Assembly (NCBI GenBank): GCA_902628635.1
Contig: CACONQ010000006.1
Span: 1-38,148 of the forward strand
Direction of reading: 5' to 3'
From: an uncultured Pelagibacteraceae bacterium
GTDB taxonomy: Bacteria > Pseudomonadota > Alphaproteobacteria > Pelagibacterales > Pelagibacteraceae
Length of the DNA: 38,148 nt
In this document: piece by piece, positions 7,504 through 33,353 of the stretch
Layout of the letters: each line of letters opens with the position of its first letter
How positions within the stretch are numbered: the stretch's first letter is position 1
Translations under genes and position numbers: made by a program
The notes under the pieces: generated by a model
What the model saw: the letters and a program-made list of their open reading frames with translations, nothing else
Database searches by the model: none
Told to the model about the DNA's origin: nothing

Positions 7504-9572
7504 ATATTTTTTCTCTCTTTTACTAGGCTCTCAACAACACTTGGATCCGCTAATGTTGTTGTATCGCCAAGTTGTTCATGTTCATTTGCTGCAATCTTTC
7601 TTAAAATTCTTCTCATTATTTTTCCTGATCTTGTTTTAGGTAAACCAGGTGAAAAATGAATTAAATCCGGGGTAGCGATTGGGCCAATTTGTTTTCTCAC
7701 CCAAAGTTTTAAGTCTCTTTCTAAATCACCACTAGGGCTTTCACCCACATTAAGAGTTACATAACAGTAAAGACCATTACCTTTTATATCATGTGGATAT
7801 CCCACAACTGCAGCCTCAGCTACTTTTGGATGAGCAACAAAAGCGCTTTCTATTTCTGCAGTTCCTAGATTATGACCAGATACAATTATTACATCATCAA
7901 CTCTACCAGTAATCCAATAATATCCATCTTTATCTCGTCTACAACCATCCCCCGTAAAATATTTTCCATCAAACTGTGAAAAGTATGTTTCTATAAATCT
8001 ATTGTGATCTCCATAAACCGTTCGCATTTGACCAGGCCATGATTGAGAAATACATAGTCTTCCTTTTGCTTCACCTTTTAAAACTTTTCCGTCTTGATCT
8101 ACAATAGCAGGTTTTATTCCATAAAATGGCTTGGTTGCAGAGCCAGGCTTCAAGTCAATTGCTCCTGTTTGAGGACTTATTAAAATTCCTCCAGTTTCAG
8201 TTTGCCACCATGTATCCACAATAGGACATCTCGAGTCCCCAACAGTTTTAAAATACCATTGCCAGGCCTCCGGATTTATCGGCTCTCCTACAGTTCCTAA
8301 TAATTTAAGAGTTTTCCTCGAAGTTTTTTTAACCGGTCCTTCACCCTCTCTCATTAAGGCTCTTATAGCCGTTGGCGCAGTATAGAAAATGTTTACTTTG
8401 TACTTATCAACTATCTGCCACCACCTTGATGTGTCTGGATAAGTAGGAACTCCCTCAAACATAATTGTTGTTGCGCCATTTGCAAGTGGACCATAAATTA
8501 TGTAGCTATGACCAGTAATCCAACCAATATCTGCTGTACACCAATAAATATCTTTAGGCTTATAATTAAATATATATTGATGAGTCATGGATGCATAAAC
8601 CATGTAGCCTCCAGTTGTATGTAAAACTCCTTTTGGCTTACCAGTAGATCCCGATGTATATAAAATGAAAAGAGGGTCTTCAGCGTTCATTTCCTCGGGC
8701 TCACAAGTCGAGGATGCTTTTTTTGTTATCTCGTGGTACCAAACATCACGGCTTTCATCCCAATTAACTCTATTTCCAGTTCGTTTAACGACTATACATT
8801 TTTTAACATTTGGGCAGTTAAGTAGAGCTTCGTCAGTAATTGATTTCAAAGGGATTATTTTTCCACCTCTAAGTCCTTCATCTGCAGTTATAACGTAATC
8901 TGATTTACAGTCGTTGATTCTGCCGGATATGCTATCTGGCGAGAACCCACCAAAAATAATAGAATGTATAGCACCAATTCTTGCACAAGCCAGCATAGTG
9001 TAGGCAAGCTCGGGTATCATTGTTAAATAAATTGTAACTCTATCACCTTTTTTAATACCCAAGTTTTTTAGAGCATTAGCTGTTTTGGAAACTTCGTTAT
9101 GAAGTTGTTTATATGATATTTTTTTTTGAACTTTTGGATCATCACCTACCCATATAATTGCAGTTTTGTCTTTATTTTTCTTTAGATGTCTATCTATACA
9201 GTTAGCTGATGCGTTAAGTGTGCCGTCATAAAACCACTTTATATGAACATCTGATTTACTATACTTAATATCTTTAATTTTAGTGTAAGGTTTTATCCAA
9301 GTAATTCTCTTACCTTCTTTTTTCCAAAATTCGTCATTTTGTTTAATTGATTGATTATACTTTTTTTCGTATTGTTTTTTATTTACTAAAGCTTTTTTAA
9401 CCCAGTCAGATTTTGTTTTAAATATTGTTTCTTGACTTGCGTTTGTACTAATTACTTTTTTAACGACTCTTTTGTTTTTTTTTAAACTTTTTTTTCTTTT
9501 ACTTTTACTTTTTACCTTTTTTTTCTTTTTAGGAGATTTTTTTTTATTTTTTCTTTTTGGTCTTTTAGCCAT
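7500..9572 (-). CDS. acs: Acetyl-CoA synthetase with a lysine-rich N-terminal extension
   Basis: A 690-residue AMP-forming acetate:CoA ligase. The catalytic core is complete: P-loop [11 protein letters not shown] at 305-315, [48 protein letters not shown] and the C-terminal [11 protein letters not shown] with the acetylatable Lys at 651. Compared with the roughly 650-residue E. coli enzyme, whose equivalent Lys is 609, there are about 40 extra N-terminal residues. These are extremely basic: about 25 Lys/Arg in the first 39. The ATG at 9572 is the only start that includes the extension, and it overlaps the EVE stop by 8 bp. A later start is possible in principle, but no internal ATG occurs before conserved sequence. 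It likely activates acetate imported by the nearby symporter. Confidence 0.95.
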
Positions 9573-10003
9573 TTTTTTTATTTTTATTAAGTATCTTACT
9601 CATCTTATTTATAATTTTCCAGCTTTTAGTATCAATTGGCATAACCGATAACCTGCTCTGTTTAATAATCGCCAAATTTTTAAGATCTTTATTTTTTTTA
9701 ATCATTTCAAGACTTACTGGGTTATCAAGATAATTTTTAAAGCCCACTTTGACCGCAACAAACTTTTTTGATTTATCTGTAGGATCAACAAAAGCCTCTT
9801 TTACGACCTCAACAATACCAACAATTTCTTTTCCAATATTGGAGTGGTAAAAAAAAACAAAGATCACCGATCCTCATAGTTTTAAGATTTTTTGCAGCCT
9901 GATAATTTCTTACACCATCCCAAAGAGAGATCCCATTAAATGCTTTTTTTTGATCATCGATAGACCACACATCGGGTTCAGATTTTATTAACCAGTACCT
10001 CAT
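9565..10003 (-). CDS. EVE-domain protein (PUA-like fold), frameshifted in this assembly
   Basis: The N-terminal part (from ATG at 10003) begins [18 protein letters not shown] and continues [24 protein letters not shown], the classic EVE/thymocyte nuclear protein 1-like start. The remainder ([23 protein letters not shown] onward) is in another frame. Removing one A from the 9-A tract at 9849-9857 joins them into a normal 145-residue protein. EVE domains have a PUA-like pocket and are thought to bind modified nucleobases in DNA or RNA; the cellular role is unsettled. It sits directly upstream of acs, overlapping it by 8 bp. The break is in a homopolymer and is probably a sequence error. Confidence 0.85.
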
Positions 10004-14144: not shown

Positions 14145-14200
14145 TATTTTTTTTTAATGATAATACAATTCAGTTATAAAATTTCAGTATAAAATATGAA

Positions 14201-15157
14201 ATGAGTAAAAAAAAAAATTATTATTGGTACTAGGGGAAGTAAATTAGCATTGATATATGCGAACATTGTAAAAAAAAAAATTATTTGAATTAAAAAACAA
14301 ATATAATTTTGAAGATATAATTGTTCAAAAGATTAAAACAGATGGTGACAAAATACAAGATGTAAGACTTTCTGACACTGGTGGAAAAGGTTTATTCTCA
14401 AAAAAAATTGAGGAACAATTGATAAAAAAATAATATTGATGTAGCAGTTCATGCCTTAAAAGACATGCCATCTTTAGAGACCAAAGGGTTATTAACTGAA
14501 TGTTTTTTAAAACGTAATGATCCTAGAGAGGTTTTAATATCTAAAAATAATGAAATTTTGGAAGAACAAAAAAAAGGAGCAATAATTGGAACTTCTTCTT
14601 TAAGAAGGGAATTTCAAGTCAAAAGGAAAATTAATAATTTTAATTTTAAACTAATAAGAGGAAACGTGGATACTAGAATTAAAAAACTTAACGATGGTTT
14701 ATATGATGGAATTATTTTATCATTAATTGGATTAAAATTTTTAGGTTTAGAGAAAAATGTTTCTCAAATATTTTCGACTTCAGAAATGATCCCAAGTGTT
14801 GGACAAGGAGTAATAGCTGTACAATGCCGCGAAGACGATTTAGAGATAAGGAATATTCTGAAAAATCTTAACCATGATGAGACTAAAAAATGTGTTAATA
14901 CAGAGAGAAATATTTTAAAAATTTTAGATGGAGACTGTGATACTGCTATAGGAGCATATGCAAAAATAGAAGGTGAAAAAATTTATGTAGAAGCAGAACT
15001 TTTTTCTCTAGACGGATCAAAAAGATTCTATGTAAAGTCCTCAAAAGAGCTTAAATACGCAGATCAACTTGGAAAAGAAGTTGGAATAATATTGAAAAAA
15101 AAATCAAAAGATTCATACAAAAAAATAATATGCATGTTTTATTCACTCGACCGATAG
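14201..15157 (+). CDS. hemC: Porphobilinogen deaminase (hydroxymethylbilane synthase), three frameshifts in assembly
   Basis: Condenses four porphobilinogens into hydroxymethylbilane in tetrapyrrole synthesis. From the ATG at 14201 the intended product reads MSKKKIIIGTRGSKLAL, then KIKTDGDKIQD, LSDTGGKGLFSKKIEEQLI, DVAVHALKDMP, GTSSLRREFQ, LIRGNVDTRI, VGQGVIAVQCREDD and the dipyrromethane-cofactor Cys in DGDCDTAIGAYA. Three tracts each have one extra A: 11 A at 14207-14217, 11 A at 14270-14280 and 7 A at 14424-14430. Removing one from each gives about 317 residues, the family size. Without correction only the part from about 14465 is open. It overlaps hemD by 28 bp. An essential-pathway gene with intact motifs argues for sequence error. 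Confidence 0.92.
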
Positions 15158-31497: not shown

Positions 31498-31818
31498 ATG
31501 AGTATTCAAAAAGCAAAGTTTTCAATTGGTGACATCGTTAAACATAAACACTTCGATTTTAGAGGTGTAATATATGATGTTGATTTTAAATTCAGTAATT
31601 CCGAGGAATGGTACCAATCTATTCCTAAGAATGTGAGACCAAGAAAAGACCAACCCTTTTATCATCTTCTTGCTGAGAATGATGATGTTACTTATGAAGC
31701 CTACGTCTCAGAGCAAAATCTATTAGTCGACGACTCAGAAGAGCCAATTAAACATCCTTTAATTAACGAAATTTTCTCAGGCAAAAAGGGATCTAGCTAT
31801 TTTAAGCCTTCAAATTAA
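31498..31818 (+). CDS. hspQ: Heat shock protein HspQ (YccV-like hemimethylated-DNA-binding family)
   Basis: A 106-residue protein with the full YccV-like pattern: KFSIGDIVKHKHFDFRGVIYDVDFKF, EEWYQSIPKNVRPRKDQPFYHLLAEND, TYEAYVSEQNL and the tail IKHPLINEIFSG. HspQ is a small beta-barrel protein that in E. coli binds hemimethylated oriC DNA and modulates Lon proteolysis. It stands alone between the divergent yciB gene and a 174-bp gap holding a hairpin before ccmC. Its role here is inferred from family. Confidence 0.92.
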   Translation: MSIQKAKFSIGDIVKHKHFDFRGVIYDVDFKFSNSEEWYQSIPKNVRPRKDQPFYHLLAENDDVTYEAYVSEQNLLVDDSEEPIKHPLINEIFSGKKGSSYFKPSN

Positions 31819-31882
31819 CCAAATACATTATTTAAACACAATTAGCTCAAAACTTTGTCATATAGATTTGTTAATTAACTAT

Positions 31883-31943
31883 TACTGACCGAGAATGATA
31901 TTGTTTCCCTTATAAATTATCTCCCTCTCATTCTTGGTCAGTA
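31883..31943. other. Imperfect 16-bp inverted repeat between hspQ and ccmC
   Basis: The left arm TACTGACCGAGAATGA (31883-31898) pairs with the right arm TCATTCTTGGTCAGTA (31928-31943). As RNA read left to right it forms 16 pairs with a single G-U and a 29-nt loop. It is much less AT-rich than the surroundings. The 174-bp gap around it is the largest intergenic region in the window. It could be the hspQ terminator (TTGACCTTTT follows), a ccm leader structure, a small RNA or a protein-binding site; nothing decides between them. Confidence 0.6.
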
Positions 31944-31992
31944 TTGACCTTTTAGCTCATTCAATCTCTTAATAATTTGTATATAATTTAGA

Positions 31993-32697
31993 ATGAATTT
32001 TTTTAATCAAAGCAAAATTTTTTCATTTATTAATAAGTACCACAATTTAATTTTAGTATTTTTTTTAGTAGTTTTATCTTTAGGGTTAATTGAAGCTTTA
32101 ATTATTTCTCCTGAGGATTATTTGCAAGGAGATTCGGTTAGAATAATGTATGTACACGTTCCATCTGCATGGATATCTTTAGGAATTTTTTCTTCCATGG
32201 CTTTTTTATCTATTTTAGTTTTTATTTTTAAAAATAAAAATTTAGTAATAATTACTAAAAGTCTGGCTCCATCAGGATTTGTTTTTACTTTAATTGCGTT
32301 AGTAACAGGATCGATTTGGGGCAAACCTACGTGGGGAACTTGGTGGGCTTGGGATGCTAGAATTACAACTATGTTAATTTTGTGCCTATTTTATTTGATG
32401 TACTTATTAGCTTGGAGAATTTTTGAGAATAAAGATAGTGTTGTAAAAATTACGTCTTTAATAACTATTATTGGAGCTTTTAACATCCCAATTATAAAAT
32501 TCTCTGTTGATTGGTGGAGTACACTTCACCAACCTTCCTCCATAAAAATATTATCTGATTCAAAAATTCATGAGTCGATGTTAGTGCCTTTGATAATAAT
32601 GACTGCGGCATTTGCCCTGTTTTCTCTGCTGATTTTTTTAATGAAATATAATACAGAACTGATAAAGATAAAAAATAAAGGTTTAGATAGACTATGA
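31993..32697 (+). CDS. ccmC: Heme ABC exporter / cytochrome c biogenesis protein CcmC
   Basis: A 234-residue inner-membrane protein with six helices. It handles heme for CcmE in system I cytochrome c maturation. The conserved first periplasmic His lies in YVHVPSAWISLG, and the tryptophan-rich WWD motif is GKPTWGTWWAWDARITTMLIL, followed by the second His region DWWSTLHQPSSI. Length is standard. It starts the ccmC-D-E-F-G-H run, all closely spaced, after the hairpin-bearing gap. The ATP-binding partners CcmA and CcmB are not in the window. Confidence 0.96.
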   Translation: MNFFNQSKIFSFINKYHNLILVFFLVVLSLGLIEALIISPEDYLQGDSVRIMYVHVPSAWISLGIFSSMAFLSILVFIFKNKNLVIITKSLAPSGFVFTLIALVTGSIWGKPTWGTWWAWDARITTMLILCLFYLMYLLAWRIFENKDSVVKITSLITIIGAFNIPIIKFSVDWWSTLHQPSSIKILSDSKIHESMLVPLIIMTAAFALFSLLIFLMKYNTELIKIKNKGLDRL

Positions 32698-32933: not shown

Positions 32934-33353
32934 ATGTATGGTAAAAAAGTTAAGTTAAGACTTACATTCTTAATAGTTCTAATTTTATCTCTTGGATTAA
33001 CAATTTATTTAGTTTTGGTATCATTAAAAGAAAATGTTGTTTATTTTTTGTCGCCCACAGAGATAAAAGCTTTAAGTGAATTAAAAAAAGATAAAATTCG
33101 GATTGGTGGAATGGTTAAAAAAAATTCTATTAATGTTAATAATGATAAGATCATATTTGTAATTACCGATTTTAAAAATGAGATTAATGTAACTTACTCA
33201 GGTCTTGTACCAAATTTATTCCAAGAAAATAAAGGAGTTGTTGCAGAAGGATTTTTGAAAGATAAAAACTATTTTAAAGCAGTAAAAATTTTAGCTAAGC
33301 ATGATGAAAACTATATGCCTCCAGAATTAAGTAACCAAAAGGGAGATAAATAA
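32934..33353 (+). CDS. ccmE: Cytochrome c maturation heme chaperone CcmE
   Basis: A 139-residue membrane-anchored periplasmic chaperone. One N-terminal helix (about 9-30) is followed by the OB-fold domain ([42 protein letters not shown]). The covalent heme-binding His is H123 with Y127 in [11 protein letters not shown]. Length and layout are normal. The next gene follows after a single base. Confidence 0.96.

Follow-up and report, generated by a model that had tools for sequence, protein, structure and literature searches.

The window (the whole 38,148-nt stretch of SAR11 (Pelagibacteraceae) DNA that was analysed) carries hspQ and a run of ccm genes in the same direction, and the subject of this analysis is the gap that separates hspQ from ccmC. 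Protein-coding genes are given as open reading frames with their Pfam families; the stem arms rest on sequence, fold and covariation together.

31498..31818, + strand: hspQ (YccV-like), the upstream neighbour of the gap; ORF, Pfam PF08755 (E 3.9e-30)
31819-31992: the hspQ-ccmC gap, with both flanking genes on the + strand
31826..31862, + strand: operator-like array with CA at 31826, 31837, 31848 and 31859 (11-bp period), in units that are roughly YTNNNNCANAN
31872..31877, + strand: predicted -10 box TANNNT (TAATTA here), conserved and at a fixed distance from the repeats
31883..31953, + strand: predicted sRNA of about 70 nt, its ends placed from the -10 position and a T-rich tail
31883-31898, + strand: 5' arm of the stem, TACTGACCGAGAATGA
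31899-31927, + strand: 29-nt loop, its left half variable, with CCC frequent at 31907-31909
31917..31927, + strand: conserved core of the loop, TTATCTCCCTC, the proposed anti-Shine-Dalgarno (anti-SD) seed
31928-31943, + strand: 3' arm of the stem, TCATTCTTGGTCAGTA
31993..32697, + strand: ccmC, the downstream neighbour of the gap; ORF, Pfam PF01578
following ccmC, + strand: ORFs for ccmE, ccmF, a thioredoxin-like gene and ccmH (Pfam PF03100, PF16327, PF08534 and PF03918)

The hairpin is exactly what had been claimed at the outset: 31883-31943 form 16 pairs, of which a single one is G-U (31891-31935), closing a loop of 29 nt. As RNA, the gap folds to -27.9 kcal/mol against a mean of -18.4 for shuffled versions (z -2.9; 1 of 200 shuffles was equally good), and its best ungapped stem scores 15.5, the maximum in 300 first-order Markov sequences being 12.5. 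The original prediction had also called the element richer in GC than its surroundings, and its gap the largest intergenic region. The former is true of the hairpin (36.1% GC) and untrue of the gap as a whole (27.0%, against 28.5% for the window; hspQ has 33.3% and ccmC 28.7%). The latter holds only if two seemingly longer gaps (near 14200-14460, and at 9565-10003) are frameshifted genes. (A technical note: the start of hemC, window 14145-14464, and an EVE-domain ORF, 9565-10003, do look frameshifted, the genes being named by eye from their translations; A/T runs adjoin the hemC frameshift. Both frameshifts are probably sequencing errors, which mimic large intergenic gaps.)

Two smaller features share the gap. 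A further short hairpin with a 5-bp stem, GGTCA-gtat-TGACC (window 31936-31949) with TTTT after it, overlaps the main stem at its 3' arm; the sequence is common to the loci L002 and L003 and, as judged by eye, apparently not to the other gaps compared. A TATAAT-like box (window 31980-31989, found by eye) ends 5 nt upstream of the ATG of ccmC, which in this genome could consequently own a nearly leaderless promoter; comparison of the gap columns reveals no conservation of this box across the genus.

How widely is the element kept? Searching 101 genomes (that of the window and 100 relatives) by DNA similarity to the gap, with no requirement for the loop motif, yielded matches in 43, of which 41 are the hspQ-ccmC gap; the matches in G008 and G080 are AT-rich partial ones elsewhere, and the loci L042, L043 and L044, AT-rich partial matches, lack the neighbour genes. 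A pattern scan of named genomes, which did require the loop motif, added at least 120 stretches, and among those listed 119 come from Pelagibacteraceae, Pelagibacterales or Candidatus Pelagibacter (one, L135, is Ca. P. ubique SCGC AAA795-D22). A match in Roseburia (L131) lies inside coding DNA and was discarded as chance; the notion of a viral copy was given up as well, the sole exact-pattern match (L165) sitting inside a phage coding sequence. The original prediction had named beforehand, as the finding that should count against it, the lack of the stem in close relatives with the same gene order. Instead, all 159 loci at which both genes can be read keep the element between hspQ and ccmC, in gaps of 150-199 bp; 41 of these loci come from the similarity search and 118 from the scan, among the matches listed, and these 118, being selected by the motif, are uninformative about how fixed the loop motif is. 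(Five of the 164 loci gathered fall outside this count: L042-L044, L131, and L125, for which the fetched stretch apparently starts inside hspQ and in which, by eye, the element is present too.)

A covariance model of the hairpin finds it, at E <= 0.01, in 183 of the 297 genomes of the order, all of them in one of its 11 genera, and each of the 43 model-found loci that were read lies between hspQ and ccmC. Many genomes gave two model matches. The idea that the RNA exists in a further copy was considered and rejected, since in 14 genomes that were re-examined the additional matches fall on the opposite strand at the original site; the exceptions are three weak matches, in G289 and G110 (E 0.008 to 0.056). 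At least 15 genomes of the same genus have no model match; 11 of these were tested, and not one has either hspQ or ccmC in its assembly, so that, wherever tested, missing contigs account for the absence of the element. In four other genera of the same family, represented by complete or nearly complete genomes, hspQ and ccmC are adjacent across gaps of 161-176 bp. None of these gaps is matched by the covariance model at E <= 0.01 (relaxed settings give matches only at E above 0.1, and among those listed none is at this locus), and yet each contains a strong hairpin, with a 12-15-bp stem of unrelated sequence and CTCCCT in its loop. In a second family (G061, G080) hspQ and ccmC are separated, and inspection by eye of the DNA after hspQ and before ccmC discloses no such element.

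The stem owes its conservation to pairing. Sixty distinct hairpins (25 from loci not selected by the motif, 35 from motif-selected loci) align to a consensus of one helix of 15 pairs, in which 98.6% of stem cells form a standard pair, as against 32-45% when the partner is slid by 1-3 columns. Covariation across related gaps, which had been proposed as the check, is present: 8 of the 15 pairs have double changes, in 50 cells where shuffles give 11.0. The 25 unselected rows by themselves retain the signal: of 374 cells 369 pair, and double changes occur at 8 pairs, in 27 cells. The stem cells also hold 116 G-U combinations and only 3 A-C (47 and 1 in the unselected rows); since the two are swapped on the opposite strand, the excess of G-U indicates an RNA that is read from the + strand, and a CsrA-like reading of the minus strand was set aside on account of this asymmetry. 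Loop lengths range over 21-36 nt and take all residues modulo 3; without a three-base rhythm, the region is not coding.

While the stem changes, the loop hardly does. The similarity search and the covariance model, neither of which requires the motif, together yielded 73 distinct gaps; TATCTCCCTC occurs in 67 of them and CTCCCT in 69, the other 4 having CCCTC. (The higher figure of 127-128 among all 128 distinct gaps is inflated by the many loci that were found through the motif.) The core is not strictly invariant: it is altered in 4 of the 43 model-found loci, by a substitution in L233, by insertion of CC in L235 and L237, and by shortening of the loop in L240, and all four loops stay C-rich. 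When one hairpin from each of five genera is folded, CTCCCT falls in the loop every time, with all six bases unpaired in three of the folds and the first C paired in the other two. A stem that is replaced around a nearly fixed loop can be thought of as the scaffold, and the loop as the working part. Such wholesale replacement is a natural experiment, and an unusually clean one, on the requirements of the RNA, and the four natural variants are ready material for probing the role of the loop.

A second conserved block lies between hspQ and the hairpin. The CA dinucleotides at columns 31837-38, 31848-49 and 31859-60 are present in 128 of 128 gaps; at the outermost repeat the C of column 31826 is found in all 128 and the A of 31827 in 118. 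Self-matching of the block at a lag of 11 is 0.485, against a shuffled mean of 0.300 (32 of 20000 shuffles were as high), and the period becomes borderline if the best of 17 lags (3-19) is allowed (226 of 5000). The same CA-N9-CA-N9-CA, with TA exactly 11 nt downstream, recurs in the four other genera; the CA triplet pattern is expected in about one random 70-mer per ninety. Elsewhere in the genome of the window the block has nothing better than matches with 3 mismatches. Following the repeats is a -10-like box, with T in 99%, A in 90% and T in 67% of gaps at +11, +12 and +16 of the conserved block (126 of the 128 gaps); TA occur together in 115 of 128, and 43 of 128 have the TG of an extended -10. 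In all five genera the TA stands at the same distance from the repeats. This box predicts a transcription start about 4 nt upstream of the conserved stem pairs, and the start of the RNA is accordingly placed, by inference, within about 2 nt of 31883, with its 3' end in the T-rich stretch 3' of the stem. Operators of ArcA and PhoB, of the OmpR/PhoB family, are described as two to five direct repeats, mostly with 11-bp centre spacing (PMC3798270). The array here is likewise one of tandem 11-bp direct repeats just upstream of a -10 box, albeit with a period that is borderline over all lags, and with CANA as its core; it is likely to be a binding site for an activator that is bound as tandem monomers, and activation of the putative promoter would, we infer, be of the OmpR/PhoB type.

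Of the functions put forward in the original prediction (terminator, ccm leader, small RNA or operator), it is the small RNA that these findings favour, with an operator-like array just upstream. The gap probably constitutes a stand-alone gene for a trans-acting sRNA of about 70 nt with an anti-SD seed in its loop. In outline, a regulator of the OmpR/PhoB type, bound to the 11-bp direct repeats, would direct transcription to start at the base of the stem; the product would be a single hairpin with a U-rich tail of its own as the 3' end; UUAUCUCCCUC, exposed in its loop, would pair with mRNAs at G-rich Shine-Dalgarno regions of the AGGGAG type; and translation of the mRNAs so bound would be blocked without the participation of Hfq. 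A conserved, unpaired, C-rich loop on a freely changing stem is what one expects if an RNA acts by pairing with other transcripts. The tail is the less regular part: a run of at least four T within 22 nt after the stem is found in 64 of 128 gaps, the T-rich tail being weak in the other half. As to Hfq (PF17209), no match was obtained in 14 Pelagibacterales genomes, complete ones and that of the window (83.75% complete) among them, the same search giving matches in 5 of 14 control genomes, Caulobacter included. With Hfq not found in these 14 genomes, the RNA would have to act Hfq-free, as is said of the rhizobial NfeR1 considered below.

The hairpin might instead be part of the ccmC mRNA, a cis-acting 5' leader that controls transcription or translation of ccmC, for example through a protein or ligand on its loop. 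We regard this as unlikely, albeit an alternative to be taken seriously: the element lies directly before ccmC at every locus with both genes readable and in the four other genera, hspQ and ccmC run in the same direction, and the predicted start would serve ccmC as well. Linkage to hspQ is equally strict, however, so that synteny cannot discriminate; nowhere is the gap less conserved than from the hairpin to ccmC (the entropy averages 1.56 bits there and 0.22 in the right side of the loop, the latter value helped by motif selection of loci); the folds that were made, which do not amount to a systematic search, contain no competing alternative structure; and between stem and ccmC start 125 of the 128 distinct gaps lack GGAG, GGGA and AGGA, that is, the SD-like sequence with which the loop of a leader might pair. 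A terminator or 3' stabiliser of hspQ, or an RNA derived from its 3' UTR, is an improbable reading, for which the hairpin's position (64 nt after the hspQ stop) and the T runs that follow half of the stems nevertheless speak. Termination provides no reason for such conservation of the loop amid turnover of the stem, at 21-36 nt the loop is long by the standards of terminators, and a conserved promoter-like block stands between hspQ and the hairpin.

Pairing with mRNA is not the only job that a free RNA could do: the loop might titrate another RNA or a cold-shock-type protein, the hairpin acting as a sponge or as an rRNA- or protein-binding RNA and silencing no mRNA. The failure to find a conserved mRNA target (see below) is in keeping with this proposal, as are the C-rich, single-stranded character of the motif, retained by the four altered loops, and the presence in Pelagibacter of CspE and CspL, which have been proposed as translational regulators (PMC2864753). 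No specific partner was identified, though, and a conserved core of ~6-10 nt looks like a seed; the proposal seems to us rather unlikely. Finally, inverted repeat and upstream block could together be DNA sites for a regulator of ccmC or hspQ, with no function at the RNA level: the block does resemble a binding site, and TGATCA, which is found in many stems, is itself palindromic. This is highly improbable. A preponderance of G-U over A-C is meaningless for double-stranded DNA, the stem sequence is swapped wholesale between genera with its pairing kept, and few parts are conserved as well as the loop.

The trans-acting anti-SD sRNA that we prefer has counterparts in other α-proteobacteria. The αr14, or cuckoo, RNAs (NfeR1 of Sinorhizobium and CcsR of Rhodobacter belong to them) are reported to combine identical anti-SD loops with stems that differ greatly, and NfeR1 to act without Hfq (PMC10746234). 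The SAR11 hairpin shares with them its α-proteobacterial setting, a C-rich anti-SD loop with an unpaired motif, and stems that differ while the loop motif stays. It differs in having one conserved hairpin rather than three and in its core, UUAUCUCCCUC / CUCCCUY rather than CCUCCUCCC, and is on these two grounds not a member of αr14. Its neighbours are hspQ and ccmC, and DUF1127 is found in none of the nine window proteins scanned. The promoters invite comparison as well. That of NfeR1 consists of CTTAGAC and a conserved upstream stretch (PMC10746234), and many SAR11 gaps contain, as seen by eye, CTTAGACA; the best conserved -10-like box here lies 11 nt after GACA rather than 17 nt after CTTAGAC, for which reason the GACA box is read as part of the repeat array. 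The LysR T-N11-A box of NfeR1 was not seen, by eye, in the SAR11 gap columns. AbcR1/2 provide another parallel, with anti-SD-type seeds aimed at nutrient-uptake mRNAs (PMC10746234, PMC7486931); they are contrasted with the Hfq-independent NfeR1 (PMC10746234). Agrobacterium abcR1 is activated by VtlR (PMC7486931), and on the part played by LsrB in Sinorhizobium PMC10746234 and PMC7486931 disagree. The SAR11 RNA resembles AbcR1/2 in its type of seed; it differs in that Hfq was not found in any of the 14 genomes and that its targets are only candidates. By analogy, then, the SAR11 hairpin may be classed as a variant of the anti-SD hairpin kind of sRNA, separate from αr14.

Does the element already have a name? 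Rfam has no match in the window at the curated threshold, and the weak, unrelated matches (E 5.7-8.7) fall outside the gap. Meyer 2009 described structured RNAs of 'Ca. Pelagibacter ubique', the rpsB, rpsL, ffh and SAM-V motifs and the further elements rhtB, pntA, babIM and SAR11_0636; like the present hairpin, these are conserved structured RNAs in long, relatively GC-rich SAR11 intergenic regions. The hspQ-ccmC gap is not named in Table 1 of that paper, and neither ccmC nor hspQ occurs in its main text. Its list was cut near 26% GC, the gap here having 27.0%; in that strain the gap may have been too poor in GC for the list, or it may stand under other gene names. No recognised description turned up in the accessible portions of open-licence papers on SAR11 or Pelagibacter small RNAs, Hfq, structured RNAs and metatranscriptomes; earlier mention elsewhere, for example in ocean psRNA surveys, is possible.

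In abundance SAR11 bacteria rank with the leading cells of the sea, and regulation in the smallest free-living genomes is usually ascribed to riboswitches and a few transcription factors. If the proposed sRNA is real, regulation by RNA in trans would extend to some of these smallest genomes, and the anti-SD sRNA design would be seen to work in a lineage in which Hfq was not found; Pelagibacterales may rely on RNA regulation that is Hfq-free. SAR11 has few two-component regulators (PMC6365647), and a mismatch between its transcriptome and proteome has been reported and attributed to post-transcriptional control (PMC2864753). A conserved RNA that acts in trans would supply a concrete candidate for a part of that control, and one that can be tested in cultured isolates.

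On which messages might it act? The pattern AGGGAGA-N2-9-ATG was sought in two sets of ten genomes and compared with its reversed version: 86 matches against 87 in set 1, and 99 against 94 in the ten other genomes of set 2. A control Shine-Dalgarno sequence, AAGGAGA-N5-ATG, gave 56 against 42 when reversed (its spacer is fixed while that of the test varies from 2 to 9, so that test and control are not matched). Unlike the control, AGGGAGA is equalled by its reverse, and there is thus no general enrichment. Nor does a conserved target emerge from the loci that were read: apart from a riboswitch gene that is discussed below, no family recurs in more than 3 of the 20 genomes, and in the genome of the window itself none of the 4 AGGGAGA matches is followed by an ORF that reaches 40 aa. 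(Another technical note: 84 loci were read in set 1, of which 20 combine a short upstream frame with an ORF of 40 aa or longer, and a symporter with a TPP riboswitch accounts for 6 of these 20; 90 were read in set 2, with 14 such ORFs, one being that symporter and one a 57-aa ORF that was set aside. Nine set 2 matches were left out as duplicates of one site, as lying on the RNA itself, or as near-identical in close relatives. The 56 control matches, in 9 genomes, were all read and gave 40 ORFs, of which four of 41-46 aa were set aside.)

The AGGGAGA genes may lean toward transport. Of the 18 families that remain once the riboswitch symporter is left out, 9 are uptake families (opuAC, amt, solute-binding proteins, DctP, NCS1 and DUF4212), as compared with 3 of 18-19 for the control that differs by one base (Fisher p 0.075 or 0.038); some families were named by eye and others by Pfam, L382 being merged with DctP by eye. 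When only Pfam names are used, the shares are 6 of 18 and 2 of 18 (p 0.23), and counting a porin-like control protein (L423) as a transporter brings p to 0.16. The lean is accordingly a lead, not a secure result. A fuller proposal, that an Hfq-free anti-SD sRNA switched by one of the few response regulators of SAR11 tunes the translation of nutrient-uptake genes throughout the family, is tentative, and we think it somewhat doubtful as a whole.

Individual genes came up as well. AGGGAGA stands before the start of metK in 3 of the 20 genomes (L458, L480, L498) and before a DUF4212 gene in 3 of 20 (L363, L496, L506), at loci that were read. Two candidates were discarded. One is ccmF: AGGGAGATAA precedes it in the window (near 33339), and GGGAGA is found there in only 5 of 91 relatives. 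The other is the sodium:solute symporter, which at 6 of 10 genomes had the appearance of a conserved target; its AGGGAGA belongs to the tail of a TPP riboswitch in its leader, and on this account the gene was rejected. TPP riboswitch-like leaders of this kind were noted at L303, L324, L331, L355, L371, L379 and L501 (by eye for six of these loci; L303 was assigned through PF00474). Compared with Rfam RF00059, the leader of L331 scores 36.7 bits (E 1.5e-5), which lies under the gathering score of 54.3, so that routine annotation would miss the riboswitch of the symporter.
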